From NCBI GenBank assembly GCA_963855995.1, contig OY979716.1, forward strand, positions 40,943,818 to 41,007,817: a DNA stretch of 64,000 bases. The letters run 5' to 3'. Position numbers and translations under genes: made by a program. Under the pieces are notes generated by a model. It worked only from the letters and a program-made list of their open reading frames with translations. It was not told the DNA's origin and did not search any database. Shown here one piece after another: positions 13,111 to 54,640 of this stretch. Numbering within the stretch: position 1 is the stretch's first letter; each line of letters begins with the position of its first letter. Source of the DNA: Muricea muricata (lineage: Eukaryota; Cnidaria; Anthozoa; Malacalcyonacea; Plexauridae).

Positions 13111-13356
13111 TTGTAAGTAACATTCTCGTAACGTCGTTGAGGCCTTTAGCACCTTAGACTATTGGCTTGTATTATTTTTGTTATCAACATTTTCCGCTCA
13201 TTAGAGCAGTTGCGCAGTTCCGAAACATTACAAGTTAATCATTAAAAAAAAGAATGCGACGCGTGATAGTTCCCGTAAGAGCCTCGTGCTGCCCCCCCCC
13301 CCCCTTTTTTGTTCTGATTCTTTCTATTTTCATGCACACTCTTCGGTATTTATTTA
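13111..13356. other. Spacer between RT/RH and recombinase
   Basis: Non-coding spacer inside the DIRS-like element with a C-run at about 13291-13302. Nothing else recognised. Confidence 0.4.
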
Positions 13357-13880
13357 GATGAATTTCGCGTTGGTGTGTGGAAGCAATTTTCCCAGTTGCA
13401 AGATCCTTCGTTGTTGTGTTTAAAGTCGTCTCTTCCCGACCTTGTGTTGAATTCTAAAGCAGGAAACACGATTCTACGTTATGCACACGGATGGAATCGA
13501 TGGAAATCCTGGGCCAAATCAAAGATTGCCGTTGTTTATTTGCCTGCGCAGCCTATATGCGTTTGTCTATGTTTAAGACATTTGCTGAAGACGGCCAGAA
13601 CCGTTTCACCTGTCGATACAGCTATATATAGTATACGATGGGCGCATTACCTAGCGGGTCTGTCTTCTCCTACCGATCATCCTTTTGTTAAAGCAACGTA
13701 TGATGGATGTAAAAGACTTCTTGCAAAGCCTCGGCAGCCCAAGGAACCTGTTCAGCCGCATATGTTAGAGCGATTAACCGAACGTCTTGGGCACACTGGT
13801 TCATCGCCAGGTGATATTCGTCTGCTGTTCATTGTTCTGGTTGGTTATAGTGGTTTTCTACGCATAAGCGAACTGTTGTC
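13357..13880 (+). pseudogene. Tyrosine recombinase of the DIRS-like element, N-terminal half
   Basis: Core-binding and early catalytic region of a phage-integrase-type recombinase: AGNTILRYAHGWNRWKSWA, IYSIRWAHYLAG, KATYDGCKRLLAKPRQPKEP, then YSGFLRISELL with the first catalytic Arg (near 13861). Homology stops abruptly at 13880 where the microsatellite starts. The remaining catalytic residues are found 8.4 kb away at 22,250-22,753, so the gene was split by an insertion. Confidence 0.85.
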
Positions 13881-18448
<4,568 letters not shown>

Positions 18449-19769
18449 AAACATATTTATACACGGTAGCCTTTTAGTTTCCTGATTTTCAAAGGGCCGT
18501 GCTTTACATAAATTACAATATATATGAACAAAAACTATTGATTATTAATCTACAAGATTTAAAAATTACTTAATTAGACTACATGCATACTTATATACAC
18601 AAATATTTACAACAATGTTTAAATTTCACACTGTGATGAGTAATGTCATGCTCTACTATCGAGAATTATAGGGTTTGTATTAGCCGTTTAAACGAGTCTT
18701 TCGAAAGAAATTGGTATTTTTCCACGACTTTATCAGATAATTTATTCCATGCAAGTGCGCCTCGGTAAGAGAAGCTCTTTTTTAGAAAATTTGTTTTAGG
18801 TTTTGGTAAATGTAATTTTCGATTATTGCTTCTCAGACCATACGTATCATTCTGACAGGTACTAAATAATTCAGTTAGGTATTTTGGTGTCATTTCTCGT
18901 AGTGCCATAAATGTCATTAATTGTTGGCGTCTGTTAAAAATATTTTCAATTGGTTCCCAATGCAGGGTTTTGAAGATGTCAGTACTTCTAACTTCGTAGC
19001 TTGAGCCAGTAATAATTCGTGCTGCCCTTTTTTGTAATTTGTAAAGCTTATCCATGTGAGTAACGTTTCCTTGCTGCCATACTGTTGAGCAGTAAGTGAA
19101 ATGTGGCAATACAAAGGCATTGTACATAGTAACTAATGCATCTGTTGTAATATAGTTTTTTGCTCTTCTTAGTAAAGCAATGTTTTTGGAAATTTTTTTG
19201 CATTGTGTATCGACTTGTTCATGCCAATTGAGCTTTTCGTCTACAATTACGCCTAGAAATTCTTTGCGCGCTACTCTCTCTATCGTTTGTTCACCTATGA
19301 CAATTTCTGGGTTTGAGTGTATTTGGTTTAACCTATTCCTGGATCCTATAATCATATACTCAGTTTTCTCGACATTTAGTGTTAGTTTGTTTGGTATCAA
19401 CCATTTGTGAACGTTCTCAAGGTCTGTGTTGTGTTTCTGCTCGATTTCCACTGATGAGCCTCCACAACAGGAGGTATTTGTGTCATCCGCAAACATCGAA
19501 GCTTTTGTAGATGTCAAACAGTTTGGTAAGTCGTTTATATAAACTAAGAAGAGTAATGGCCCAAGATTTGACTCTTGCGGCACTCCGCAAGTAATGTTCG
19601 CAGTATTTGATATTTCATTATTAATTTTGCAAACTTGCTTTCTTCCCGAGAGATAAGATATAAACCATTGTAATGCGTGCCCTTGTACGCCATAAGTTTT
19701 TAACTTGGCTATAAGTATTTTGTGGTCAACTGTGTCAAAGGCCTTTTTTAAGTCGAGTAATAATATACA

Positions 19770-20391
19770 AGGAAATGTTTCTGGGCTGTGATTGGTTGAT
19801 TCGAGTGCAGTTAATCCCAAACATCACCCAGAACAGTGCAAAAATCTGTAACACAGTGCAAAAATCTGTAACAACAGTGCAAAAATCTGTAACAACAGTG
19901 CAAAAATCTGTAACAACAGTGCAAAAATCTGTAATAAGCTCTTTGAGCGATGGGATTTACTCGCTGAAAAACCAAAAATATGGCGGCCGAATTTTCACGT
20001 TTGCTTAAAGATTTCGTCGAAATTTCAACACAACTTGGGATTCTTCTCTGACAATTATGATCACAAAACAAACTCTAAAGTATGCTGGAACTTTGTACAT
20101 AAAACTTTTAGCCATGACTTTTGTAAACATGAATTTTTTAAGCGAAGAAATTCGAGAATGAGTGCACTTGCATAATGCGAAGTTGTAAGTACAGAATGCT
20201 TGTTTGGACATTTCCTTTTTATATTATTAATAAGTAATAGTATAATTTCTCGTGCAATTACGGAAAACAAGCACTCGTGAGTTTTTAAAAACCGCAAATA
20301 GCACTCGTCCTTCGGACTCGTGCTATTTTGCAGTTTTTAAAAACTCACTCGTGCTTGTTTATCCGTAATTGCACTCGAAATTATACTATTA
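19770..20391. mobile_element. Insert in the minus-strand LINE: 21-bp tandem array plus palindrome
   Basis: It separates the RT codons for LINGVLF from those for LLDLKKAF. It contains about five copies of ACAGTGCAAAAATCTGTAAC (19,832-19,935) and ends in a long palindrome (20,235-20,391). Exact termini and duplication were not resolved. Confidence 0.6.
20235..20391. repeat. Palindrome with ~73-bp arms
   Basis: Arms start TAATAGTATAATTTC and end with its complement. The short loop sits in CTCGTCCTTCGGACTCGTG. Typical foldback MITE. Confidence 0.85.
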
Positions 20392-22249
20392 CCTATACAA
20401 ACAGCACACCGTTAATTAGTCCTCTGTCCATGTTTACAAGGTATTGGATCGAGGAACATAAGAGTGTTGTCTCTGTTAAATGATGGGCTCGAAAACTTGA
20501 CCGATTAGTTGATAATAGCTGATAATTGTCAAGAAACTCACTTAATTGTCGGTAGACGAGTTTCTCAAAAACTTTCGCAACCGCTGATATTACTGAGATA
20601 GGCCTGTAGTTTCCACTCTCCGTCTTGTCTCCTGATTTATAAATAGGAGTTACTTTGGCTAGTTTCATATCATCTGGAAAAATTCCAGAATTAATGGATA
20701 AATTGAAAATGTAAGTTAGTGAATTTACGATGGTTTCACCAGCGGCTAATAAAAGTTTGTTAGAAATTTTGTCAAGACCTGCGGATTTTTCATTTTTTAT
20801 TTTGCTTATCTCGTTTTTGATATCCTCAAAAGTAATGTTTCTGAAGTTAAACACTTGTGAACTGGGCGTAACGTAACTCATTGGATTGATTTCAGAGCTA
20901 GGGAAATTATCTCCTAGTTTTGGACCTATTGTTGAGAAGTATCTGTTGAATTCGTCTGCAATGTTTTTGTCTCCAGTTACTTCTACGTTCTCGGTTTTTA
21001 TTTTGTTGATTATCGTAGATTTTGATTTCTTATTAAGAAGTTCGTTAATTGTTTTCCATCCGTCTTTGCAATTTTTTGAGTTCTCTAACTTATGCTTAAA
21101 GTATTCAGCCTTAGTATTTTTTATAAGTTGGTTTAGATTGTTACGACAGTCTTTGTATAATTCATGGTATCTCGTAGAGTTATGTTTTATTGCTTTCTTT
21201 TTCAAGAAGCCTCTATGATAACTGAGGCTCTTAATTTCATTTGTCATCCAAGGATTATATTCACTTTTAACTTTTCTTGTTTTTAATGGTGCGTGATGGT
21301 CAGCAACCCCCAGCAAGAGCATCTTCCAAGTATGCCAAGCAGCATCTGGATCCGTACAATTATACAAATGCACAGAGCCAAACGCCTGTCTGAGATCCTG
21401 CTGGAAATTGCCCGTGTTAAAGTTTTTAAATTGTCTAGTTTCTACTATTTTAGGTTTTTCCCTCGGAATGCTGACCTTTCTACAAACGTATACAAGGCTG
21501 TGATCACTAATACCCAAGTGGATGACCCCCGAATCTGTTATTTTAGTGTCATCTATTTTTGTGATTATGATATCAAGTAGAGTCTTAGTTGTTGGGGTTA
21601 TCCTTGTTGGGTTCTTAATGATTTGTTGCAGTTGATATTCATTAATTAAGTCATTTAGTTGTTAGTGTGTTCATTGTAATCTGAAGCTAGAAAGTTACAG
21701 TTAAAATCACCTGTTATGATAATATCCTTGTCTTCATCGTCTACTTTTTGTAAAAAGTTGTTAAAGTAGTCTAGTAGTTCTATATTAGCGCTTGGTGGGC
21801 GATACCATGTAGAAATTATCAAAGCTTTACTTTTTGGTTTGTTAATTTCAAGGCAGATTGCTTCAGCATTATTCGTCAATAGGTCATTGCGGTCTGTGTA
21901 TGGAATAGTTCTTCTAACATATAATGCGACGCCACCCCCGTTTCGGTTTCTGTCTTTCCTTATAAGATCATAACCAGTGATCTTAACTTCGTCATTTGAT
22001 ATAGTATTGTCTAACCTTGTTTCGTTAATACTTAGTACGTCAAATGTTTGGTTTTGCATGAAAATTCTTAATTCTTCAATATGTTTAAAAAGACTTGCTA
22101 TATTTAAGTGGCCAATTTTAAAACCCCTTAATTTTCGGTAGGACGGGTTGCTGGTTTGCCTTCGTGGTTGAGTACATGATCGTGTTCCAATTTGTGCTGA
22201 TATTGATATGTTACTTGAACTTATGTTTACGTCATCTACACTAGTAGGC

Positions 22250-22753
22250 AAATCATTTGTTAGTCATGTCCATGAAGACAAATCACATACAGATTATGCC
22301 CGAAGGAATGTCAGTCTTCTTCCAACGCGCAAAAACGACCAGTTTCGAGTGGGGAATACGATTCATATTGCTAGAACGGGTAAACCTACTTGTCCTGTTG
22401 TTATTACCGAAAGGTTATTGGAAGCTCTACCTGGCAATCGTAATGGTTGCTTGCCCGTTGTCCGAAGGCTCAAATGCGTCCGAGGTTTTCAAGCTTTCCA
22501 TGAATCGCGGGGTATATCTTACACTACAGCGGAAGATCTGCTCAAGAGAAAACTTGGCGTTTTCTTCGATGATTTACGACACTTAGGAACGCACAGTCTC
22601 AGAAGTGGCGGGATTTCCGACCCGGGGTGCGCAAACTTATCGGACATCTTCTTGCAGACTCATGGTGGATGGAAATGCGTGGAGTCAAAGAACAAATATA
22701 TCAAACCTTCAACTGAGGCACTGTTTAAAGTGTCATCCAGTCTGTCTATCTGA
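22250..22753 (+). pseudogene. Tyrosine recombinase of the DIRS-like element, C-terminal half
   Basis: Continues the recombinase cut at 13,880. DDHIQ-like residues, PTRKNDQFRVGNTIHIARTG and KPTCPV are followed by catalytic HSLRSGG (His/Arg near 22,592) and GGWK, and the likely nucleophile Tyr in SKNKYIKPS (near 22,696), ending at a stop at 22,753. Two compensating frameshifts lie near 22,275 and 22,320. Together with the N-terminal half it supplies the R..HxxR..W..Y residue set of tyrosine recombinases. Confidence 0.85.
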
Positions 22754-23382: not shown

Positions 23383-23585
23383 ACGGTGGCCCACAGCTGT
23401 CACACTATATATTTAGTGTACATCAAATTAAAATTGCTCACATCAAACTACAATTGCTCACATCAAATTAAAATTGCTCACATCAAATTACAATTGTTCA
23501 CATCAAATTACAATTGCTCACATCAAATTACAATTCATTCACATCAAATTACAATTCGTTCACATCAAATTACACAGCAAAAAAT
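23383..23585 (+). repeat. 20-bp minisatellite with CACATCAAATTACAATTGCT unit
   Basis: About eight units follow a short unique head (CCCACAGCTGTCACACTATA) that contains an imperfect palindrome. An inverted copy of head plus array is at 31,655-31,905. Confidence 0.85.
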
Positions 23586-25304: not shown

Positions 25305-27339
25305 TAAAGATCCTTCTGGTTTTTCTATATTTTCTTTGGGAAGAGCTTCTGAGGAAACAAAGGATCAAGATGACGCCACTAAACCTTGCCCAAGTGCTGG
25401 AGATAAGTCAAAGAAATCTACCAAATGATTTTTTCAATTCAAAGCGTTAAAAGGAAAAGAATGGAATTCCAAACTAAAAGGAGGGAAGCAAAAAGTGGGT
25501 AGTAGCTCTAAAAGTGCAAACCAAGATGTTCTTATTTTCATCATACTTCTTGAATATAACAACAAAGAAAAGGCTCTTAAAATGAAGCGAGGAAAGAAAG
25601 TGGAGCTACGAATATCCAAAACAGCAACTGCTGCAGTGATTCGTGAAAAAGCAGAAGAGAAATGGAAGGCGTATTACAGTGACTTGTATTATGCAGATCA
25701 GCCCTACCTTCTCGTTTATGAAGATGGGCAGGACGTGAATTTTTTGCCTGGAACTAATGAAATATTCACACTCCAACGATATCACGAAGAGTCAGGTATA
25801 GATTATAATAGAATTAATCTGTACCTGTGCACTATGGAAGACCATAATCACATGCTCATGGCAGAATTTGATAGTGATTCTGATGAAACATTGCCTCCAT
25901 GTAAATGCATTAAAACCGATGAGGAGTCTATATTCAAAGATGATGAACAGAATGAACAAATCCAGTCAGATAAAATCCTTGCAAGGCAACTCGAAAGCGA
26001 TCTTAGTTGGGCAAATGTAAAAAATAAAGATGACATAAGTCACAATGACGTATTACAAAGTGACCTGCCATTTAGTGAAGTTGTAGTTATTGATGAAAGT
26101 GGCAGTACCCTAACTGACGATAACGATGTTGAGCAACAAGTAACAAAAAACACAAATTTCCTGGAGGAACTGAGCAAAAGAGTTTTCTCACCAGAACAGA
26201 CCAGTTTTTTCTTGTGGCTCGAAGAGAAGCTAATCTGTGAAGGTGCCTAAATTTATGGCAACGTGTATCAAAGCGCACCAGTGCTAATAAAACTTTAAGA
26301 GTTCACTTCACAGGCGAGGATGGCATAGACAGTGGAGCAATGGCAAATGAGTTTCTCACAAAGGTGATAACGGACATGCGAAATACCATCTCCGAGCAGG
26401 AACCCCGGTTGATTCCACAAATAATGTCCAAAATGGACATTTCTCAACTTGTGGAACAATTGCTGCTGTTAGCCTTTCTCAAGGTGGTCCACCTCCCTGT
26501 TTTCTCCATGAATGTGCCTACGAACAAATGGTAAATCCTAAGAAGGATTTACAACATTTAGATGATGACGATATTACCCCTGGAGAGAAAGTTAACCTGG
26601 ACAATATTATGAGTGACTTAATTAACAATCGTTCAACTATCATAGACCATGGACACACTGGCAAAATAGATCAAGAGCACATCAGTGACATTCGCAGGTC
26701 TGTTATTGTCAGTCTTGTTACCAAACGACAGCTATACCTCAGCGAATTCATGAAAGGTCTTGAAATGTATGGACCTGCGGAAATGGTGAAACAACATCCG
26801 GAAGAGTTTAAGCAGTATTTTGTGATAGGGCAAATCCAACCAGTTGATGCCAATTTTGTGTTTTCTCTAATGAAGCCCCGCTATTCCGAAGAGGGTTCGA
26901 CTAGGAAGGAGATAGAAGAGAATATGATGGATACGTTTCAAGATTTTCTGAATTTATTAGAAGATAGCGATGAAATGGTAACAGGTTACTCTGAGGCAGT
27001 GTCGTGGAACTATTTAGAAACTGACGAGTGTCCGCAGCCATGTTATGGAGGTAGGAGAAGATGAAAAATTTCAGCTGCCAGAGATATCAGTTCCTGGGCT
27101 GCTTGGCTTGCTAACTGGTCAACAACATCGGCCAATCAACGGTGATCCCTTGAATACTTTCGTGAACTTTGATCACGATTGTTTAGTCCGCAAACCGGAT
27201 CATACGATCTGCTTTCCGTGTGTTGGTGCATCTGGGAGAGAGGTTAACTCTTCCAGTTAGCCACATAAAAGATGAAGAAAATTTCAAAAGAATCTTTATA
27301 ACTGCATTGTCAAAAGGACAATCTTTTACTAGGCCATAA
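25305..27339 (+). pseudogene. HECT E3 ubiquitin ligase (G2E3-like), C-terminal exon
   Basis: Begins in a Ser-rich stretch (GRASEETKDQDDATKPCPS) and has an in-frame TGA near 25,426. It continues with FKALKGKEWNSKLKGG, GSSSKSANQDV, KAEEKWKAYYSDLYYAD and DYNRINLYLC. The HECT domain follows from about 26,253: RVHFTGEDGIDSGAMANEF, AAVSLSQGGPPPCFLHECAY, then SVPGLLG-LTGQQHRPINGD and DHTICFPCVGA, which holds the probable catalytic Cys, then LPVSHIKDEENFKRIFITAL and a stop at 27,337-27,339. Frameshifts at about 26,250, 26,400, 27,045 and 27,240 make it a pseudogene unless they are assembly errors. It would transfer ubiquitin to substrates; the partner N-terminal exon is at 9.9-10.6 kb. Confidence 0.8.
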
Positions 27340-29078: not shown

Positions 29079-30199
29079 TTAATGTTCATATCCATTAGCT
29101 GCCATATGCATCATTGTCCTAAACATCTCGAGTGCTTCTCCGTGACCTTTAGGATGTGGCAAGACAAGATTATTTCTGACGTACTCAAAATACTCAAAAT
29201 ATTCTTGGTAGTTATCTGCTAATTGATGATCAATGATGTGCTCTGAACCAAACTCGATTTCGTCTCGACGTAATTGTACCAAATAATCTCTGGACCCATG
29301 AAGCTGTGGTAAAAAGTAAAGAGAATCGGGTCGTCCTGGTTTGGGATCGTGCCTCGACCTTCGAATTCTGTGGGAATTCCAGTGCTCTTTCACTGAATCC
29401 ATCTCGGTCTGAAGTAACTGATGAAAACAATACCACAAACCTGCCATGTTCAATTTGCAAGCTGTGTCTATAAAGCTTTCACACTCCAAATCCTTAAAAA
29501 AATTTCTCCACCATTGACAATGATTCTTTGCAAAATACGCCCACCATCCTTCGATGCGTTGGTTTCTCGGAGAAGGTACGTATCGATGAGCTTCAGGATT
29601 ATCACGGAAATATGCTTGCAATGCGGCCGCAGTTCCATTTTCAGTTCCTAGATCTGTCACCAATTGCACCGGACAGCCATTCAGTTCTAGGACAGCTTCA
29701 GAATAATACGAGGCAATATGGTTTGGCGAGTTGTTAGAATTGGTTACACGAAGCCACAAAATTCTTCTGCTGTAGCCGTCAATAGCTCCATGTATTGGAA
29801 AGCTCCAACACTTTAGCTTACCATATCCGTCAATGTGCCAGGAATAATTGGGCCAGGATTTTGATAAACTCTCCTTTTCAGTCGACGTTTTCTTTGGAGC
29901 TCAGACCCTTCTGGATCCATTTCCTTCAACAGATCTTGAACGATAATTCTGGGAACACGAATTCCATCCAGCTCAAGGGTATGCCAAATTGAACGGTAGC
30001 CCATGGCAGAACCTGGTCCATTGATTAATTCCCTCATCCGCCTCTGAATAGTTTGAAAGGTTTTCTCGAAAGAGTCTTTTCTTGTGATACCTCTTCATCC
30101 CAAACCATATTTCTTTATGCGCCTTAAGAGAGTACTATAACTTATTGTACATTGATCACGACTAGCAAGAAAGCATAGGATTTCTTCATAAGTAAATCT
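29079..30199 (-). pseudogene. Integrase-core (DDE) transposase-derived gene, last exon
   Basis: Reading down the minus strand: a HTH-like start (FTYEEILCFLASRDQCTISY, STLLRRIKKYGLG), MGYRSIWHTLELDGIRVPR, KEMDPEGSELQRKRRLKRR, then WHIDGYGKLK and HGAIDGYSRRILWLRVT (catalytic Asp), VTDLGTENG (second Asp) and NQRIEGWWAYF (Glu, 33 residues after the second Asp). It ends with HRIRRSRHDPKPGRPDSLYF. This is the putative integrase-core family common in marine invertebrates and fish, related to rve/IS3-like transposases. A T-rich acceptor (TTTTTTTTGTAG) precedes the exon at 30,200. One stop and one frameshift (near 29,850) break it. Confidence 0.75.
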
Positions 30200-31654: not shown

Positions 31655-31905
31655 GTAATGAGTGAATTTTAATTTGATGTGAGTGAATTGTAATTTGATG
31701 TGAACGAATTGTAATTTGGTGTGAGTGAATTGTAATTCGATGCGAGTGAATTGTAATTTGATGTGAATGAATTGTAATTTGATGTGAGCAATTATAATTT
31801 GATGTGAGCAATTCTAATTTGATGTGAGCAATTCTGATTTGATGTGAGCAATTGTAATTTGATGTACACTAAATATATAGTGTGACAGCTGTGGGCTACC
31901 GTAAT
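31655..31905 (-). repeat. Inverted copy of the 20-bp minisatellite
   Basis: About ten units of AATTTGATGTGAGTGAATTG run up to a head identical in type to that at 23,383 (ATATAGTGTGACAGCTGTGG), in opposite orientation. Confidence 0.85.
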
Positions 31906-43541: not shown

Positions 43542-43763
43542 GTGAGAAGCATTACAAGGAGTGCAGAACACAATTTACATTTTACGCGCCACTTTGTATT
43601 AAGTATTTATTATTTGAAAGGGGATATATGAAATTTAGTAAATGTGCATCAGCAGGGACGTTGTGCAGGGCATCACAGGAGCAGGTGATTTTTTAATACA
43701 TTTTCCTGCGTAGAGTAAGTAAATGGCAATTTTACTATGAACATATTAACAGAATTTGTAAAT

Positions 43764-44006
43764 GGCTATCTTTAAAAGCCGGAACGGGGAATCGGGGAAC
43801 GGAACGGGGAACGAGAAAAACCGGAACGAGAAAAGCCGGAATCTTTAAAAACCGGAACGAGAAAGCCGGAATCTTTAAAAACCGGAACGAGAAAAGCCGG
43901 AATCTTTAAAAACCGGAACGAGAAAAGCCGGAATCTTTAAAAACCGGAACGAGAAAAGCCGGAATCTTTAAAAACCGGAACGAGAAAAGCCGGAATCTTT
44001 AAAACT
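43764..44006 (+). repeat. Left TIR with 31-bp subterminal satellite
   Basis: A terminal 70-bp head is followed by about six copies of a 30-31 bp unit (GCCGGAATCTTTAAAAACCG + GAACGAGAAAA). The unit combines two half-motifs already present in the head. Confidence 0.9.
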
Positions 44007-44022
44007 AACCCAACCACACAAT

Positions 44023-44130
44023 CCACGTGTTAGCCTGCAGAGCAGGCGTTTTGGGGAACGGGGTTGGGAGCGAGGCGGAGGAAACCCCTCCCCGCCCGCA
44101 AACGCCTGCTTCGCAGGCTAACACGTGTGG
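44023..44130. mobile_element. Palindromic MITE inside the MULE
   Basis: CCACGTGTTAGCCTGC and complement, about 28-bp arms, GC-rich centre. Confidence 0.75.
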
Positions 44131-45261
44131 TCTTTTCTACTTTGTTCGTCGGAAAAGCAATCAAAGATTCAAAGCAAAGTTTTCTTCCAATGGTGAGTAA
44201 TTTTATCACATTTTAATGTATTGTTTTATTGTTTGAGTGCTATTGTTTTCAGAGTTCTCACGATTGCGTTCAGTTGACAGCCTGACAGGTTTTGCGAATA
44301 TGATTTGCATGTAATTTACATATCAGTAACTAGCTAGCGCTACTACTAGCATATAAAAAATAATCAAATCGAACTCCGTCCTCAACTCAAGGTCTCGCAT
44401 CGCCGTTGCGTAAAGTCCCAAATATATTTCTTCGGCGATTGACCAGAAAAACTGTGTTTAAAGAACTGTTAAAATGAGCTAAACAATTGGGTGTTGTGAA
44501 ACAGCAGAGTGCTTTGTATAACTTATAATAGGGCCATAGCCCCAATAATTTAGCAGACTTTATGCATTTTTTAAATAATATACCTTTAAAATACAGACTC
44601 TTAATGAATTTTAAGCAATTGCATCATTGGTTACAACAAATATAGTATCTACTTAACTACTGAAATGTTTATATGGTACGCCTTGAAGAATGTGTGCCAA
44701 CCATCATGCTTGCACGTCGATTGAAGTTTTCATTTTGAAATTTGAATCCATGAAAAATCGCAACCATCCTATAAATACACTTGCTTATTTTAACATATTT
44801 TTAATGGGGAATGCAATAAAAAAAATTTCTCTAGCCTATTTTGTGTTATAAAATAAAATACAATATATTCATAATATTCTGCTCAACAAGTGAAAACTCT
44901 GTATGTTATAAATAAATTGATGTAAAATTGATTTCCCCAACCAAAAAAACAAGATTACTTTGGCCCTGCATATACCCATTTCCAATACGTGGAAATTTGA
45001 AAAATCGACTCGCCATGACATGCGTAAAAGGACTCGGGCGAGTAGACAATGGGCCAATTGCACAATAGCCAAAAAAATTAAAAATCGAAATGGGAAAATC
45101 TTTCACCACAACATAAAAAACCATCCTAAAGTTGGTGAAATTGAAAAGTTTGATTGTAAAATGTTTCAAAATGTGTGAGATAGTCACGCTGATACATTTT
45201 TCACATTCTAAAGCATTTCACTACCGAACTTTGCCAATTTACTAACTTTGGGATGCTATTT
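44131..45261. other. 5' region of the MULE, no gene recognised
   Basis: No coding signal between the left TIR and the kinase ORF apart from short spurious ORFs. It may hold the promoter and 5' UTR. Confidence 0.4.
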
Positions 45262-45449
45262 CACCCGATCCGAATGTTGTATCCCAATAAAATTATTGTC
45301 TCCAATAAATTATTGGGATTGTTAGGGTCAGGGTTGTGGTTTGGGTCAGGGTTCATTTTATATGCATGAAATGACAATTCCAGTAACTATTGGAATTATC
45401 AAACGTTGTAACCAGTAATTTTACTGGAATACAACGTTCGGATCGGTTG
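45262..45449. mobile_element. 188-bp TIR element with GCTATTT duplication
   Basis: CACCCGATCCGAATGTTGTA and complement (about 40-bp TIRs). GCTATTT is repeated at 45,255-45,261 and 45,450-45,456. Confidence 0.8.
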
Positions 45450-45772
45450 GCTATTTAATGCTGTGGTAATAAATTTTACCTTTTTTCAAAAAGACATTGG
45501 CTATAATGCTATTGGTGCAATGGACGAAACGTGAAAACTAGATCTCAAGAATAATGTGATGGCTCGCTACGTTTAGTTACCAGATATCTAGGAAAACAAG
45601 CGCGAATCGCAAAGTGTGATTGATAGAATAACTAGTGAATATTGCATCATTATTATGTACAATTCTATTTGGATACGTATGAATATTTAGTACGTGAACC
45701 ATGAATGTTTTTTTCGAACGCCCTGTATTTAATTTTCTTTTCTAAGTTAATCAAGATATTCTGTGTTTATTA

Positions 45773-47653
45773 ATGGCTGGAACATTTGCAATTCCTCAAC
45801 TCTCTCTTCGCCGTGATACAGTTCCTGATTTAGACGTTCCTTTATTTAACTGGAGTGATTTTTCAACTGAGAAGCATTTAGGCAGTGGAGCTTTTGGGGC
45901 TGTGTATTCTGGCCGGTACGAAAGGCGTGATGATGTTTTCGAAGATGTTGTGGTGAAACAACTACACACGCAGACCAAGGAAAGCAAGCGTTTATTTTTG
46001 AAAGAAGCACGTTTACTTCATCGCCTTCCTGATCATAAGAACATTGCTTCTTTTATTGCATTTTGCGCCGAACCATTTGCAATCATGATAGAGCATGTGT
46101 ATTTCGACTTCACTGTGTTTGGAATTGAAAAGACGGTGACCGATTTGAGTGAGTTTTTACGGTTTGTTGATGAGAAACTTGAATTTTCGGCGCTGAAACA
46201 CTGTCCATTAGAGATCGCCCGCGATGTTGCAGGATTGTGTTTTCTTCATTCCAACGGTATCGTCCATCGCGATCTGAAACCAAGCAATATATTGGTCACG
46301 AACCAGCATTACCTTGGGCAACTTCCGGAAAAAGAGCAGTCCTGTCGATTCGCAGAAAGTCCCATAAAGTGCAAGTTGGCGGATTTCGGAGAGAGCAGGG
46401 CAACATATTTGCAAACTCGAACACTTGTGGAAACACGTACTGCTCGGGTTGATCGCGGAACGCCCGCTTTCATGGCTCCAGAAGCATATTTACGGGCAAC
46501 ACGATCCATGACCCAAGAGGATATGAAACGAGCAGATATTTGGAGTTTTGCTATGGTAGTTTATTGCCTTATGAATCCTGACGTCGATCATCCATATGAA
46601 CATTGTTTGTTCCCCGATAGCCAAAAAGATTCGATCGAGTCTTTGAAAGTTTTTCTAGAAGCGAAACGTTTACCTCAACACGGACCAGGCTATGAATTTC
46701 TTCAAGTCTCTGAGTGGTGGCGACTTGAGAATGCTTTCAAGAATTGCGCCAAATTTGAACCAGAATTGCGACCATCAGCGCACGATGTAACTACCATGTT
46801 GTCTAAGGGTAAAAGTTTTTCTGCTTCAGTCGAACACGTGGTCCCTTTACAAGTAAGTCAGGCAAGTTCGCTTTGTGAACAGGACAAGATAGCCGCGGAA
46901 CGTTTGAATAGTTCAAATGCTATTTCAATTGAATACGAGAATGAGGAAACAGCTGTGGATAATGACGGAACAAATTCATGCGCTTTTCTTGGTTTGGAGA
47001 TAGCAAATCGATTTCTGGCATCAAAGGAGCCTCTGGAATGGAGTGAATTGAAAACAACAGCCGAAGATGTTATTAATAATTATCCTATTGTTATTAATCA
47101 ACTGCGCGTCAAAGAAGAATTATACGAACCGATTGCTGCTTATTCGTTGATGAGAAACAACAATCTCATAAACAACTCCACACTTTCCGAAGAATTCGTC
47201 GACGAAGCAACGCAACGCGTGTTTTCTGTTGCCGGTAGAGATCATTTCGTTCATGTTCTACTCCGTTTTGCGCAGATGTCGTCCCATGGAGTCGGACTTT
47301 ATACGTGTGAACCATATACATTTCTTGTTGGCTTCAATAGGCAATCGTTTTTCGTTCTGGATACTCATCCAATCAGCTGTTCTTTGGGTGGTAACGGGAA
47401 CGGCATTTTACTGTACACTCAAGATACAAATGATACTTCGTGCATGCGCTTGGTTCGTTGGATCCATAGAAGACTGTTGGAAAGTGGCCTTGGATGCAGC
47501 AGTCGGCAAAGTTTGGCTTGGATTACAGTCAGTAAGTATATAATGACACTGCTTTTTTGTCGATTATTGCAGTTTGATACCCTATACGGCGAAGCAATTA
47601 TAAGTCTACTGCAAAAAAAAAAACCCGCGCCAGTTTTTCATAGAATGTCTTAA
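45773..47653 (+). CDS. Protein kinase fused to a papain-like cysteine protease domain, carried by the MULE
   Basis: Open for 626 codons from the first ATG. Kinase domain (about residues 28-345): glycine loop GSGAFGAVYSG (37-47), Lys62 in VVVK, Glu78, HRDLKPSN (165-172), DFG (204-206), APE (235-237), DIWSF (255) and the Arg of ELRPS (333). All catalytic residues are present. Domain two (about 395-586): GTNSCAFLGL with candidate nucleophile Cys403, then YTFLVGFNRQSFFVLDTHPI with Asp530 and His532, the layout of papain-fold deubiquitinase/OTU-like proteases. A GTC-A/GTAAGT donor at 47,531/47,532 (phase 1) matches the acceptor at 48,674, so the last 40 codons are probably intronic. Kinase substrate and protease specificity are unknown. 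Confidence 0.85.
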   Translation: MAGTFAIPQLSLRRDTVPDLDVPLFNWSDFSTEKHLGSGAFGAVYSGRYERRDDVFEDVVVKQLHTQTKESKRLFLKEARLLHRLPDHKNIASFIAFCAEPFAIMIEHVYFDFTVFGIEKTVTDLSEFLRFVDEKLEFSALKHCPLEIARDVAGLCFLHSNGIVHRDLKPSNILVTNQHYLGQLPEKEQSCRFAESPIKCKLADFGESRATYLQTRTLVETRTARVDRGTPAFMAPEAYLRATRSMTQEDMKRADIWSFAMVVYCLMNPDVDHPYEHCLFPDSQKDSIESLKVFLEAKRLPQHGPGYEFLQVSEWWRLENAFKNCAKFEPELRPSAHDVTTMLSKGKSFSASVEHVVPLQVSQASSLCEQDKIAAERLNSSNAISIEYENEETAVDNDGTNSCAFLGLEIANRFLASKEPLEWSELKTTAEDVINNYPIVINQLRVKEELYEPIAAYSLMRNNNLINNSTLSEEFVDEATQRVFSVAGRDHFVHVLLRFAQMSSHGVGLYTCEPYTFLVGFNRQSFFVLDTHPISCSLGGNGNGILLYTQDTNDTSCMRLVRWIHRRLLESGLGCSSRQSLAWITVSKYIMTLLFCRLLQFDTLYGEAIISLLQKKKPAPVFHRMS

Positions 47654-48674
47654 CTGCGTGCGCGGCCGCTTTTTATCAAATCACTCAAGCTCACCACATG
47701 CATTCCAAATTTTATTACATTCATTTTGAAATCAATGGTGTTTCCTGAAACCCGATTGGTTAAAAATAGTGCGATTAATCCCCAAATCGCGTCATTTTGA
47801 GTGCGATTACACATTAATCACACTCTCTCATAAAATCCAATCAAATGAAACATCTGAGTTGAACCAACCAGTCAGCTTTAAGTATAGGAACACAAAAAAA
47901 CATAAAATTAGACTTTTTCAAGACAAGTAGTTTTCCCCAAAGTTAATTTCTATACAAAATTGCTGAATTTAAATTTGTATTCAAATACTGTAAATATTCA
48001 AATAAACAAACAGAAATGACAACAAAATACTAAAGAATATAAACAAAATATTACAGAATTAATTTGGAAATTAAAATGAAAGAGACAGATTTTCCGACAA
48101 AGAATTGTAGAAGTGCGAAGAATATCGCACAACTAAAGACAACTAGACAAGTATTGAAAAGCAACGGCAGCGCGACGTTCGTGGTTGTAATGTACATTTA
48201 CCGCACCAAAAAGTACTTTGTGAAACTATACAAAAGACATTATATGTTTAACTTACTTTTGATTGTATCACCCGACTTTATGTCACGGCCATTTTGTTCG
48301 CATGTTGCTATGTTACAAGATGGGGGCAAGTTCGGGCGTGTTTTTTGTAAACAAACTAGCGTTGGCGCCGCTTGTAGATTTCAAAATGAATGTAATAAAG
48401 TGGAAATTGCACTTCATGTCGTGCAATTTTGGTCTGAAATCAAACTTGTGATTACAAATCGATTTTGTAATCACGAGTTTGATTTCAGACCAAATTGCAC
48501 TCCACTCAGTGCAATTACCATTATTAATCAAGTGCGAAAGCAACAATAGTGCAGATTTTGGTAACGTCACTAATGTATCTACACAGTAATCACACAATTT
48601 TTAACTTTAACTTCACACTGAAATTGTTTGGAACGTCTTTGATTACAACTACTTGTTTGGTTTCTACAATGTAG
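47654..48674. other. Probable MULE intron with palindrome
   Basis: No gene. It contains a hairpin of about 37-bp arms (about 48,422-48,500; TTTGGTCTGAAATCAAACTT and complement), flanked by further GTGCAATT / GTGCGATTA motifs reaching back to 47,780, probably one nested foldback element of about 780 bp. Confidence 0.55.
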
Positions 48675-49847
48675 ATGAAAATGAAACTGATGTTCACGAA
48701 GAAAGAAATCAAGCAGAACAGCGTCACACCAACACCAAAGTTGTTGATAATACTTGTGAAAAGACGTTGGTTGAAAACGATGAAGAAATGGTACGATTGA
48801 CTACCATTTGTACATGAACAAGGATATCTTTCAGAAGATTAATAAGGTATTCGTTTCTCTATCTATTTTGATGTAGGTTACGGTAAACGTGTTTGGTGTT
48901 CCTGAAGAGAAGACGATACCTGCAGTGACGCTTCATGAAGTAGGAGATCACGAGGGAAGTCTTGAATTATTCCCAGAAGACCAAGAAATAGGGAGAAACT
49001 TAGAGGTTGAAGTATTATATAGTTGTTATGTTGTTAAGTAGTTTTAGGAGGTATATGAAACATCCAACGTTATATTGCGCAACTGCTGCATGGTAATGGG
49101 GTGGACAGAAGTATCTCTGAATAAATTTTGGAAACGTTACTTCGATGAGTTACGGAAGTAAAAAAAAATATCCTGCGTGAAATATATTTATGATTTTTTG
49201 TATTAATATGCAGGAGCCATCTATAGCAAATACATACACAGCTGGTGATAAAGAAAATATTCGAAGGTAATCAAGATCAAACGATGTATATATGCCCGTG
49301 CGCATCGTCATAATAGAATTCCTTGGGCCCGGGGAAAAAAGCTTGCATTTTGATGTGGAGATAGCCATAAGACATAATTTCACGCACTCAACTATGGAGT
49401 TCTTGCATTTTTAGCAAGCGGCAAGAAAGACTTGTGAAAAGTTCAACGGTTTTCATTGAACGCGATGACATCCATGAAATACCAGTCCTGTCGCTGACCT
49501 CATCCAGTTCGACTAAAGGTTCGTTTTTCTCAAATATTGCCGAACGGCGAATTTAATTGCAGCTTGCGGTACTGGAAAAGTATATTTTATATCCAAACAA
49601 TTTACTAACCTTCACTATTCTTCTATTTACCAGAACAGACCGACGAGAATAAGTCTTCAACAGATAATGAATCCAACTGTGAAGATGAGTCTTCAAGGTT
49701 AGTTTTGATCTTTTGTTTCGCACGAGCAAGATCTCTTTTCTGCGCTATGCAAGCGTTCCCCGGAATTAATGATGACATGCTATTTCCTGCTATTTTAGTC
49801 GCAATGGGTCATCGCCTGGGCCCACAAGTAATTGTTTTGAACCTTAA
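48675..49847 (+). CDS. MULE acidic linker, six small exons
   Basis: Exons 48,675-48,790; 48,877-49,005; 49,214-49,266; 49,415-49,518; 49,634-49,697; and from 49,799. Each is bounded by AG and GT, and phases chain without conflict (1-0-0-2-1-2). The first completes the codon split at the end of the kinase-protease exon. They encode a Glu/Ser/Asn-rich chain (ENETDVHEERNQAEQRH ... EQTDENKSSTDNESNCEDES ... SRNGSSPGPTS). The last runs in frame to a TAA at 49,845-49,847. Transcript evidence is needed for exact use of each site, but the unbroken phase series is unlikely by chance. Confidence 0.6.
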
Positions 49848-49859
49848 AAGGAAGATGTT

Positions 49860-52800
49860 ATGACACCAGTCTTCTCCTGGAATAAGGTAGCATACACTAG
49901 CGAAGAACTGGTTTCTATCCTGTTGGACACCTATCAGCCAGAACAAATGTGCCTATCTCCGCCCATCAATATTTCTCACAATGTCTGTTTCTTGGTGGAT
50001 ACGAAAAATATGCAACACGAAGACGATCTTAAATGCGATGACATGGGTGTCTGGAAGCATAACGGCTCCCCGAAATGCCAATTTCATGTGGAAAAGAACT
50101 CCCGAGGGGTTAAACGAATTATTGCAGTTGGTAGAAGTTCAAGCAGTCAAACGGAGCGAACAAGCGATTTATACACCTTGAAACGTGCATACTACAAAAA
50201 TGCTTCAGATCCTGATGTTCGCAAGATCATATCTAAACTATACGGTATGTTGAATTTTGTTGGCTGAACTTTTTCATACTGATAAAACATTACTTTTGGG
50301 ATTATCTATCAACACATTTTTTTCATTCGAAAAAGATTTTTAAACAGAGAAAATAGGAGTCTTGAACCAAAAAGAAATTCGATCGTGAGATGAAATTGTT
50401 GCAGGTTACATGTAATTTTACGAGCTTAATAACGAAGTGTATTTATTCCATGTAGATAATCATGGCAATCAAGTTCATGTTGTCTTTGTCCAATACTTAT
50501 TCAGTGGCTTGGAACACGAGGTTAACTGTATAAAGCCCCACGGAAATTCAAAAGCGAGAACCTCATACACGCGCATTTTACCTAGCACACGGGAAAAGAT
50601 GAAATAGTCGGTATTTCAAAAAGGAAAGACAGTGAAGGAATCGCTAGATGAAGTGTATCTTGCATCCGGAGATGTTACAATGGCAAGGTCTCTTGGTGAA
50701 CTACCGAGAGGGCCAAATGACATTTATAACGCCAGACACTCCGCTAATCAATCTTCGGAGCGCCCTTCTCTGCCACGTGGTACTCAAAGAAAAAAATACC
50801 AAAATAATAAAGACGTTCATGTGAATAGTATGTGGACACTTTTAGAACGAGCCGAACGGGAGGAAGAACTCTCCAAGGACGCAGTTTTTATACGGGAATG
50901 TGCAATACATCCAGACTTCTTTGTCGTTATAGCAAACGATCAGCAACTCACAGAACTTGTTCAATTTTGTACAAACCCCAAGGAATACAGTGTTCTGGGA
51001 ATTGACCCAACCTTCAATATATTTGACCGGAACATTAGTCTCACTGTCACCACGTACAGAAATCTCAGGTTAGAAAACCCGAAAACTGGAAAGGCACCTG
51101 TGTTCGTGGGACCATTGTTAATGCACCAAAGAAAAGACTGGCAAACTTACTCGAAGTTTGCACATGCTCTGGTAACCTTAAAGCCAGAGTTGGAGGGTGT
51201 TCTTTCCGTTGGCACTGATGGAGAAAAAGCCCTGATTGACGGCTTCAAACGAAACATGCGTTTCGCTGTATTTCTACGTTGTTTCTTGCATTTTAAAGAC
51301 AACATCGAAAGGGAGCTTGGAAGCAGAGGAATCACGGGCGACGAAAAGACGCGTTTCGTGTCGGAAATATTTGGGAAACAGGAGGGTTCTGTCAAGTTCT
51401 TCGGGCTAAATGACTGTGAAACTGAAGAAGAATTTGACTCGAAGCTTGAAGGGCTGAAAGTAAGCTGGGAAGAAAGAGAAAATGAGATCGGAAATGGTAG
51501 CCACAAACGCACGTTTTTCGAGTGGTTTCAGTATGAAAAGGTAGTATTATATTACATGCATATGTGTAGTTAGCGGCAGTGAAGAAAAAAAAATGAGAAA
51601 AAGCAGAAAATTAGAATTTGATAACAACGTGTAACAAGCCTGCAGCAGACTTGCTACAACTTGTGTGTTTCTATGTGTGTAGACCTTCTCAACCTCGCTT
51701 CGGTGACTGAATTCGAAATTAAACATAAATTTTACACCTAAACGAGAGTGACCCGACGAGAATTCATAACTAGCGATAACATACATATACCTACATTTAC
51801 TAACGATAAGGTGTTTTTTATCAGGCATCTGATATGAAAGAATCGATGTTGAGACCTGTCCGAGTAGAAGCTGGACTTGGAAACCCTCCTTCAGAGTACA
51901 TCAATAACGATCCTGAGTCAGCAAACTTCATTATTAAGCATGGGCTGCATTTCAACGTTGAAAAGCCACACGAGTTTATCCATAAAATCAAGAATATTAT
52001 CGAAACTCAACAACGTAATCAAGATCGCGCTGTGTTTGGCAAAGGAATGTACCGAGTTCGGCCCAGTTTTCAGCATCTTGCGATTGACGAAGTAGAGATA
52101 AGCCGTTTGAGTTACGCTCAAAAGACCAAAAAGCTGATTGAATTTAAGAACGCAGGGATGAACGACATGCACGATGCTACCAGCCCTGATCAAGAAGACT
52201 CTCTGGATGAAGAGCAAACGTCGTCAATGAGCATCAGCGCAAAGGAAAGCAAAATAACAACAGTACCTTTGCCAATCCTTGAAGCTATGTTCGAGAAAGC
52301 GTCCAATTTGCTTGCGTCAAAGGGAAGTGTTATTCCCAAACCCGGGGCTGATAATGGTTCTTTTACTGTCGCGGGAACATTAAACAAAGTTCATAGTGTT
52401 ACTCCTGGCAAAGGCGGCTGTTTGTCATGCGATCGTACATGTATCAACCACGCTACCAAAGTTTGCGAGCACGTTCTTGCTGTTGCGCAGTTGAGAGGGT
52501 CGCTCGGTGAATTTCTTGCCTGGTTTAAGCGAAGGAAACAACCTGCTATGATGGATATGGTAGAACAGAGAGGGCCGAAGAATGCGGGCAGAAAGCCGTC
52601 TAAAAGAAAACGGTCAAATGCAAAGAAGCAATCAGTTAACGAGTATACAGATTTGCTTGGTGGCGGTGATGGTCAATCTTAGGATTTATCAGGTGGCCAA
52701 CAACCACCTGCTAGGGCAGCCAGAAGTGTTCGGCAGCACAGTACGGGCTTTTCCTCAAATCCAGTAGTTCCCACTACTCTTTCGCACTCAGACACAACAC

Positions 52801-53366
52801 AAGTAAATGCCTTTCATCACCAGCAACGTGCTTCTGCGCCCTCTTTTGCCAAAAATGGTATGTCACAAGTTAGCCCATTGAGTCGTTACCCTTCAATGGT
52901 GACTTGTGGTATACCCCAGACGGGCTATGGTTATCATGTTCAAGCCACACCTTCCAGCGCAACTTTACCAGATGGAGTTTCCACGGCAGGAACCGTACAT
53001 AATTTGATAAATCCCCAACAGCTGGCTTCCGTGCCAAATTTCTATTTAAAGTGGGTTCAAGGAACTAGAGTGTCCCGGTGTTACGGATGCGACGGAATTA
53101 TTCAGAATCCACCCTTACACCGCCCCGATGACCTGATCGTTTTTTGCCGGGATATACGCGAATACAGGGACAGATTCTCTGGACAACTACAAAGAAGTGC
53201 GAGTGCACAAAATGTTCATTTTCACCTCCGGAATGAGTGTATTTTGATGAAATACCCTGGTTTCTCAGTGGAGTTTTTGAAAATCGGACCGGAATTCATC
53301 CCGTATCTCCAACAAGAACATTTGCGACATTTGGCAGTTAACTTTGGTTGGACGTTCCACTGTTAA
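49860..53366 (+). CDS. MULE-type transposase with SWIM and C-terminal zinc domain, three exons
   Basis: Exons 49,860-50,244 (ATG in GATGTTATGACACC), 50,456-51,540 and about 51,825-53,366, phases 1 and 0. The N-terminal module has HEDDLKCDDMGVWKHNGSPK. The DDE core has LGIDPTFNIF (Asp near 51,004), VGTDGEKALIDGF (Asp near 51,217), RCFLHFKDNIEREL, and an E-rich helix ETEEEFDSKLEGLKVSWEE. A SWIM-like finger CLSCDRTCINHATKVCEH lies near 52,417, followed by a basic stretch and a cysteine/histidine C-terminus (CYGCDGIIQNPP ... FHLRNEC). In-frame TAG codons at 50,605 and 52,680 interrupt otherwise conserved frames. The ATG is 12 nt after the TAA ending the linker, so one fused protein or two cistrons are both possible. 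It would cut and paste the element. Confidence 0.8.
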
Positions 53367-53937
53367 AGACGCAAAAGGCCCTTTCAAATGAAGCCAACCT
53401 AATGTTGGATGAAGATTTTAAGCAGGTTTAAATTGAAGCCAACATCATCCAACATGGTGTTCAAACGAGACCAACAGGAGATGATGTTGCACCAACAGGT
53501 TGCCCTCGTTTGAGCAGGTCTTAACGTTGAAACATTATTGATTTCAGATAATTTTCACTGAAAACTTCGGAACTTTGTTTCGAACTTCTCGATTCTGTTG
53601 CCAAGTTCCCAAAACTTGGTGACGAGTGCAATGTTAGGAACGAAGTTCGGAAGTATTTAGGAATGTTTTGTTAAAGAGTTTTGTTAAAGACTATTAGCAT
53701 TTTTACACAAGTGAATGTAAGAAATCCAATGTTGTGATTGGTGCAATTTGACGTGACATTCCTTTATATTCACCTACAGGTGAATATAACATTAAAACCA
53801 AGTTTACAAAATGGCGACTAGCCGCCGTTTTGTACAAATTACGGACAAAGAAATAAATGAAATTAAAATAACTTGTGTAAGAATACTAAAACAATCAATA
53901 TGATAAACACCTCGCCTTCGGAGAATAGTTAATTATT
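53367..53937. other. 3' region of the MULE, repeats only
   Basis: GAAGCCAACAT-type repeats (53,392-53,520) and a 24-bp palindrome near 53,770 (TATATTCACCTACAGGTGAA). No gene. Confidence 0.45.
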
Positions 53938-54242
53938 ATTACTCTCGATTTCAGTTCGCTTTTGAAAAATCACTTCGAATGTTCGTTTGTAAGTTCGGAA
54001 TGTTCGTTGCAAAGTTCCAAAGTTTGTTTTGAAGTTCGTTCCGACAATTTACGATGAGCCAGCTTTGCAAGTTCTGATTGGCTGCCATAATAAGTCAGCT
54101 AATCCAATTGCTCACTTTTCAATAATCGTAAATACGCGGAACGAACTTCAAAACAAACATTGGAACTTAGCAACGAACATTCTGAACTTACAAACGAACA
54201 TTCGAAGTGACTTTTTAAAACCAAACTGAAATCGAGAGTAAT
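53938..54242. mobile_element. Foldback MITE, ~305 bp, inside the MULE
   Basis: ATTACTCTCGATTTCAG... with CGAATGTTCGTTTGTAAGTT mirrored at 54,130-54,242; about 105-bp arms with mismatches. Confidence 0.85.
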
Positions 54243-54460
54243 CGTTAAAACGCTACAATTATAGCAACTTCACCGCCACCTCACATTTAAAAACGGTTAA
54301 CGCGGATGCTTGCAACGCTAGGAAATTGATATTAAAAAAATCTTAATTTGATCTGATGTAAACACTTATAACTATGTAAAACCATTTTTGGTAATTCCTA
54401 TCATAATTTTGCTTAGTTGCAGATTTTTGGCCGAATGGCTAGCCATCAAATCTTGAAGTG

Positions 54461-54630
54461 CGTTCCGGTTTTTAAAGATTCCGGCTTTTCTCGTTCCGGT
54501 TTTTAAAGATTCCGGCTTTTCTCGTTCCGGTTTTTAAAGATTCCGGCTTTTCTCGTTCCGGTTTTTCTCGTTCCCCGTTCCGTTCCTCGTTCCGTTCCCC
54601 GATTCCCCGTTCCGGCTTTTAAAGATAGCC
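54461..54630 (-). repeat. Right TIR with 31-bp satellite
   Basis: Reverse complement of the left terminal head with one extra 12-bp sub-unit, preceded by about three satellite units instead of six. Confidence 0.9.
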
Positions 54631-54640
54631 ATTTGTAAAT

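Follow-up and report, generated by a model that had tools for sequence, protein, structure and literature searches.

A Mutator-like element of Muricea muricata in which an exon for a kinase and a VTD-like protease probably opens the transposase gene

We analyzed a 64-kb stretch of the genome of the anthozoan Muricea muricata (the window; C1:40943818-41007817 of a 453-Mb, 74-contig assembly) that contains a transposon at positions 43764-54630. The outer 43 bp (GGCTATCTTTAAAAGCC...) are identical between its two terminal inverted repeat (TIR) ends, the element is flanked by two copies of a perfect 10-bp target site duplication (TSD), and the TIRs, here about 170 to 240 bp long, contain tandem arrays of 31-bp subterminal repeats. 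Between them lies an open reading frame (ORF) of 626 amino acids (45773-47653) that encodes a protein kinase joined to a papain-like protease domain, followed on the same strand by the exons of a transposase with the DDE catalytic triad. The kinase-protease frame looks like exon 1 of a predicted nine-exon gene that continues into this transposase. The features of the element are as follows.

43754-43763, no strand: left TSD, ATTTGTAAAT
43764-44004, plus strand: left TIR, comprising the 43-bp outer end and the 31-bp subterminal tandem repeats (43816-44004)
45773-47531, plus strand: exon 1, Ser/Thr-type kinase (residues ~30-345) and VTD-like protease domain (~395-586; C403, D530, H532), ending in a phase-1 donor
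48675-48790, plus strand: predicted exon 2 (linker), phase 1 in, 0 out
48877-49005, plus strand: predicted exon 3 (linker), phase 0 in, 0 out; omitted by the automatic chain
49214-49266, plus strand: predicted exon 4 (linker), phase 0 in, 2 out
49415-49518, plus strand: predicted exon 5 (linker), phase 2 in, 1 out
49634-49697, plus strand: predicted exon 6 (acidic, Ser-rich linker), phase 1 in, 2 out
49799-50244, plus strand: exon 7, N-terminal part of the transposase (weak Pfam DUF7747 match, E = 9e-4, below cut-off), with one in-frame stop
50456-51543, plus strand: exon 8, core of the transposase with the two DDE Asp and C-x2-H, with one in-frame stop (50605-50607)
51825-53366, plus strand: exon 9, DDE Glu, Cys/His zinc-finger-like (SWIM-like) motif and C-terminal domain, with one in-frame stop (52680-52682)
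54461-54630, minus strand: right TIR with 31-bp subterminal repeats (54461-54566)
54631-54640, no strand: right TSD, ATTTGTAAAT

A preliminary description of this stretch had proposed a complete 10.87-kb Mutator-like element (MULE) with 43-bp outer inverted repeats and a perfect 10-bp TSD, carrying a full-motif kinase joined to a papain-fold protease together with a MULE transposase. Its coordinates are exact, and each of these components is borne out by the analyses below. Two terms need narrowing. "Complete" holds for the ends of the element and not for the enzyme, because the transposase half of the window copy has three in-frame stops in the spliced model, all in exons 7 to 9. The ORF does hold the kinase-protease frame; its last ~40 residues, however, are probably intron, because a splice donor follows codon 586 (47531/47532) and the open frame simply runs through it.

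A DDE triad with C-x2-H between the second Asp and the Glu marks the Mutator family. Across copies of this transposase, the first Asp is present in 17 of 17, the second in 16 of 17, C-x2-H in 17 of 17, and the Glu motif in all 11 with letters at that position. These motifs, together with TSDs of 9 to 10 bp (within the 8- to 11-bp range) and the inverted termini, identify a MULE. Pfam gave no transposase match in the window's own exons; of 10 relatives scanned, only P0065 scores above the PF00872 Transposase_mut cut-off (2.5e-5), and it also reaches PF10551 MULE below cut-off (8.9e-5); both relatives scanned against NCBIfam match IS256 weakly. Named transposase relatives come from Paramuricea clavata and Desmophyllum pertusum. 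A structure model of the core exon (pLDDT 57, pTM 0.47) was not used, and an Rfam search returned no match.

The kinase domain spans residues 32-341 (Pfam PF07714, 1.7e-30; PF00069, 9.7e-29) and has the Gly loop, Lys, Glu, HRD, DFG, and APE motifs of a Ser/Thr-type enzyme. Among copies, K62 is kept in 27/27 and HRD and DFG each in 26/27, the exception being C1_30.0, a copy with seven stops (copies are named by contig and position in megabases). Kinases of different families are 35 to 57% identical, with synonymous sites saturated. The nearest solved relatives by sequence include ULK1, RIPK1, and IRAK4, all ordinary kinase-fold matches.

The C-terminal part of the ORF has no Pfam match at E ≤ 10. 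An AlphaFold model of residues 390-590, built from 12 sequences (pLDDT 78.4, pTM 0.80), is papain-like, as the preliminary description had expected; in it, C403 opens a helix and D530-T-H532 closes a strand. Ranks 1 to 4 of a Foldseek search against the PDB are AvrPphB, 8add ("Viral tegument-like DUBs," that is, deubiquitinases), and the cytomegalovirus protease M48 (2j7q, two chains), at E values of 2.8e-3 to 7.5e-3 and TM scores of 0.43 to 0.55; against BFVD there are seven matches at E ≤ 0.001, three of them to named herpesvirus tegument proteins. C403 is present in 22/22 copies and D530-x-H532 in 20/21 of those with letters there; in the 12-sequence alignment Cys and His are invariant, and Asp is present in all but P0001, which has Glu. 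The D-x-H order is given as a VTD feature by Erven et al. 2022 (PMC9741609). By fold and motif, then, the domain is a predicted VTD-like deubiquitinase, with membership short of proven; we use "VTD-like" rather than assigning it to the VTDs because no profile-level sequence similarity to known VTDs was found in the PDB or Pfam, and ubiquitin cleavage by it is putative. A scan of viral contigs with query A1 gave 16 pattern matches and no relative among them.

The pairing of the two domains extends to other animals. In a search for protein relatives of up to 1,100 aa, the best 120 of 473 kinase relatives include 54 with a VTD-like domain, and among those of at least 540 aa the proportion is 39/44. 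Named kinase relatives occur in Dendronephthya, Holothuria, Actinostola, Pocillopora, Oculina, Mytilus, and Desmophyllum. In the sea cucumber Holothuria leucospilota, one protein combines the kinase with the VTD-like domain, D-T-H being intact. In two related coral kinases, P0187 and P0230 (Pocillopora meandrina and Oculina patagonica), the VTD is absent and a different, repeated module occupies the C terminus, as if the kinase had several partners.

In the M. muricata assembly, the kinase-protease ORF has at least 72 matches (the best 70 of 358 candidates were scored), which form at least 61 loci, the window included. The kinase is thus not confined to the window copy, a possibility that we reject. 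Genome-wide, the outermost 28 bp of the TIR have 78 matches at ≤3 mismatches, and a backward-read control gave 0; with the 31-bp arrays located inside the TIRs, we also reject the idea that the arrays are an unrelated satellite. Ten kinase sites beyond the window were fetched, and a TSD with two TIRs was found in the window and in five of the ten. The TSDs are 9 to 10 bp long and all different:

C63: TSD ATAACAGAAC; TIR-bounded copy
C1_42.28: TSD TTTGAAATTA; TIR-bounded copy
C4_12.8: TSD ACGGCGAAA, 9 bp; TIR-bounded copy
C1_86.4: TSD TTAACTGGAC; TIR of other sequence
C1_103: TSD CACGACTTT, 9 bp; TIR of other sequence

These six elements have three TIR types in total. Because the flanks of C1_95.3 and C1_95.9 are common to both sites over 15.75 kb, these two were counted once, as a single duplicated insertion. 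Mobility of the kinase-bearing elements is evident at the level of sequence from their TIRs and their different TSDs.

The kinase and the transposase travel together. For 36 of the at least 61 kinase loci, one of the 125 listed transposase loci is found within 12 kb, where 0.41 would be expected from genome coverage, and in 35 of these 36 the transposase is downstream on the same strand. The VTD behaves likewise: 31 of 44 VTD loci are within 12 kb of a transposase, all 31 in that same order. Among the matches listed, the 44 comprise 23 loci with kinase and transposase, 5 with kinase only, 8 with transposase only, and 8 with neither; at one of the transposase-only loci (C1:64774050) a kinase was found with a nearer query (best 75 of 413 candidates scored). 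Transposase exons lie 3' of the kinase in 9 of the 10 fetched sites, the tenth (C1_1.46) showing just a portion of the kinase. Viewed from the transposase, the twelve best loci have a kinase within 13 kb upstream in 10 cases and a VTD match in one, and lower-ranked loci often have neither among the matches listed. The TIR-bounded, transposase-carrying copies of the window family (window, C63, and C1_42.28) all contain the kinase. The preliminary description had taken the kinase-protease to belong to the transposon's own gene set, to be looked for in repeated copies with different flanks and duplications; the recurrence of the same kinase-protease in the same order as the transposase agrees with this.

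The large number of kinases in animal genomes is the only point in favor of host kinase genes lying by chance beside MULE insertions, or of an assembly artifact. With the kinase inside TIRs and TSDs in six elements and the 36/61 linkage to transposase, we reject this explanation as exceedingly improbable.

Selection appears to act on the coding parts. Between the window and its sister copy C63, omega (the ratio of nonsynonymous to synonymous rates) is 0.14 for the kinase, 0.09 for the VTD, and 0.20 for the transposase core; kinase and VTD together have 5 nonsynonymous and 12 synonymous changes (Fisher P = 2.3e-5; transposase P = 3.7e-3). MULEs often capture gene fragments, and the kinase-protease could be a passenger of the Pack-MULE kind, made of captured host gene pieces with no function for the element. 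Some short TIR elements hold kinase pieces only, and gene-fragment capture is described as frequent in MULEs (PMC13317346). The element itself does not behave as a Pack-MULE: it contains its own transposase, omega is low between the window and C63, full-length open frames with catalytic residues persist in diverged families, and order and orientation are conserved. We therefore reject the passenger as very improbable.

We next consider how the two halves may be joined. A phase-1 GT donor stands at the end of the VTD exon in 19/21 copies (A|GT or N|GT after AW[IL]T...), and in the other two the alignment stops earlier; the 21 copies represent about ten groups, judged by eye, and the 19/21 count stands without a formal control. 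At the other side, exon 7 has no conserved Met and is preceded by an AG|T phase-2 acceptor in 9/11 copies. The five linker exons of the window were picked by eye, each open in the phase dictated by the preceding exon. In C63, the nine predicted exons, once joined, give a single frame of 1767 aa; C1_42.28 has frameshifts in exons 1 and 8. Exons 2 to 6 have equal lengths in the window, C63, and C1_42.28, and the stretches between them have many gaps. An automatic exon-chain search re-picked exons 2, 4, 5, and 6 in C63 and in the window; its score ranked first of nine phase pairs in C63 (reached by 0/100 shuffles), first in C1_86.4 (2/100), and second in C2_12.2 (0/100). Fusion is well supported, as a prediction, in the window/C63 family and plausible in the other families.

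Together, these results suggest a group of animal MULEs whose transposase gene opens with an exon for a kinase and a VTD-type (viral tegument-like) cysteine protease; short, acidic linker exons would connect it by splicing to a DDE transposase, so that both activities would be brought to the transposition complex. We give this reading a probability of roughly 70%.

Several observations weigh against it. The exon model is a prediction from sequence, and the C63 frame requires a GC donor after exon 7. The exon-chain score is fourth of nine phase pairs in C4_12.8 (0/100 shuffles) and weak in C1_103 (rank 3, reached by 20/100 shuffles), and across families the linker exons resemble one another only in low-complexity repeats and at the ends of exon 7 and the VTD. 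Among the matches listed, a transposase is missing within 12 kb of 25 of the 61 kinase loci, and a kinase within 25 kb of 89 of the 125 transposase loci. Constraint is not seen in every pair: between C3_19.4 and C1_88.2, omega is 0.61 for the kinase and 0.56 for the VTD, with 9 nonsynonymous and 0 synonymous changes in the transposase core exon, and pairs with the decayed, frameshifted C1_42.28 give 0.18 to 0.57. As for the VTD assignment, matches by fold in the PDB are modest (best E = 2.8e-3, TM about 0.5, none at E ≤ 0.001), and profile A2, built from seven sequences, found no VTD chain in the PDB by sequence at E ≤ 10.

One alternative is that the element contains two genes, the kinase-VTD exon with its own short 3' exon encoding a separate accessory protein (like mudrB, VANC, or KIU of plant MULEs) and the transposase starting in the linker region. 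Accessory genes beside a MULE transposase are known, as with VANC (PMC5735166) and KIU/Ulp1 (PMC13317346), the join of the two halves is itself predicted, and the automatic chain is weak in C1_103. Against two genes stand the phase-dictated frame of C63, open through all linker exons into exon 7; the unchanged lengths of exons 2 to 6 in three copies whose neighboring introns are gapped; and the want of a conserved start Met in exon 7, with the phase-2 acceptor upstream in 9/11. We regard the two-gene arrangement as unlikely.

If exons 1 to 9 are spliced into one protein and both domains are active, the fusion would carry both activities to the transposition complex. There, the VTD may strip ubiquitin and so spare the transposase, or a chromatin or repair factor of the host, from degradation, and the kinase may license or protect the complex or disarm a local host factor. 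The preliminary description had put forward, as a possibility, phospho- or ubiquitin-level control of host or transposase. The main rival on mechanism keeps the same fusion and changes its target: instead of the transposition complex, the kinase-VTD half would target host silencing or innate signaling, for anti-silencing or immune evasion. Anti-silencing factors are known among MULE accessory proteins (PMC5735166); ULK1, RIPK1, and IRAK4 are among the kinase relatives, though as ordinary kinase-fold matches; and exchange of exon 1 between lineages, described below, would fit an arms race. However, a module fused to the transposase would bring its two activities to the element itself, and no host target is indicated by any analysis run. 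A host target is a real possibility, if the less probable one.

The kinase-VTD exon and the transposase have different histories. C1_86.4 and C1_103 have kinases 55% identical and transposases 28% identical, whereas C1_103, compared with the copies C3_19.4, C25, and C1_6.86, has a transposase 62 to 65% identical and a kinase 35 to 39% identical. In trees of 11 lineages, the kinase and transposase data each reject the other's tree (approximately unbiased [AU] test, 5.8e-9 and 3e-68), with many single nodes weakly supported, and the VTD data accept the kinase tree (AU 0.415) and reject the transposase tree (7.3e-5). Kinase and transposase distances among these lineages are uncorrelated (r = -0.19). 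The whole 16-copy set, with its near duplicates, gives r = 0.71, which counts against separate histories and arises because near copies move together. We repeated the comparison with seven lineages whose halves are paired by TIR and TSD or by a second copy with the same pairing, leaving out C2_12.2 and three lineages paired by proximity only (C1_6.86, C1_36.16, and C1_63.17). Both AU tests again reject, and the conflict persists: the kinase groups C4, 86.4, 103, and 36.57b (99), and the transposase groups C3_19.4, C25, 103, and 36.57b (100). TIR types track the transposase.

Because kinase and VTD fit one tree that the transposase tree contradicts, exon 1 seems to pass from one MULE lineage to another. 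The conflict is most simply read as exchange at the phase-1 intron, the conserved intron at the end of exon 1 making it exchangeable on this view; independent capture of exon 1 from a shared source is the alternative. On balance, and with somewhat less confidence than in the reading given above, we favor a single transposase polypeptide with its own kinase and deubiquitinase, whose front module is an exon swapped via the conserved phase-1 intron among MULE lineages with transposases about 30% identical, a licensing or protection cassette that would evolve apart from the cutting enzyme. The probable splicing of the kinase-protease exon into the transposase gene and its apparent exchange between lineages go beyond the preliminary description.

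Parts of this architecture have precedents. Helitrons encode VTD domains (Erven et al. 2022, PMC9741609), with a papain-fold D-x-H deubiquitinase domain in frame with the main transposon enzyme as here; however, that enzyme is a rolling-circle RepHel rather than a DDE/TIR transposase, the word "kinase" is absent from the main text, and the Muricea domain is matched by fold and motif, not by sequence profile. Plant MULEs with KIU (Ulp1; PMC13317346) and the cnidarian MuDR-6_HM with OTU (PMC6446971) likewise have a ubiquitin- or Ubl-type protease gene within a Mutator-like element, although of another protease family and with 0 occurrences of "kinase" in either main text. TBE, also a DNA transposon, has a kinase gene of its own that is under purifying selection, but it is of Tc1/mariner type, occurs in a ciliate, and has the kinase in a separate ORF and no protease. 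Fungal IS3EU elements have an alpha-kinase gene, and TET/JBP genes have passed between transposon families (PMC12730594); these resemble our case in having a kinase gene in a DNA transposon and an accessory gene that crosses transposon lineages with order conserved, while IS3EU differs in superfamily and kinase type and has separate genes and no DUB. In Arabidopsis, VANDAL MULEs encode the anti-silencing protein VANC (PMC5735166), a non-transposase protein that aids propagation and a possible functional analogue, but one that binds DNA and is not an enzyme fusion. Kinases, DUBs, and gene swapping are thus each already known in DNA transposons, and the combined architecture is unusual: searches of the open-licence literature, which did not extend to Repbase, turned up no kinase-DUB-transposase fusion.

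Transposases are usually thought to borrow the phosphorylation and ubiquitin systems of the host. If our reading is true, these elements would allow a direct test of whether phosphorylation and ubiquitin limit animal transposition and on what they act, and the module exchange would be a clear case of DNA transposons evolving in modular fashion through an intron, with a parallel in the VTDs of Helitrons and herpesviruses.

Kinase pieces also occur in another arrangement. In three short TIR-bounded elements (C5:6605009-6607894, C1:110600402-110602888, and C1:76630333-76632630), they are paired end to end in opposite orientation, so that transcripts would form hairpins that could silence the family. 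The Mu killer locus of maize, with its hairpin-forming transcript, offers a comparison. A further opposed pair lies at C3:12928354-12929667, where there is no TIR match of the window type.

Within the element, between the last exon and the right TIR, a 118-nt inverted repeat (53938-54055 and 54125-54242, 92% complementary, 69 nt apart) is perhaps a nested small element. Elsewhere in the window, two 20- to 21-bp satellite arrays (23420-23574 and 31659-31865), each apparently the reverse complement of the other, enclose some 8 kb that include an integrase-like ORF (29079-29759, labeled by eye) and an ORF at 25495-26250, possibly another DNA transposon. Reverse-transcriptase-like ORFs, recognized by eye, lie at 11337-14427, 15015-17933, and 18666-22251 and include a DIRS-like type with a recombinase-like ORF and non-LTR types.

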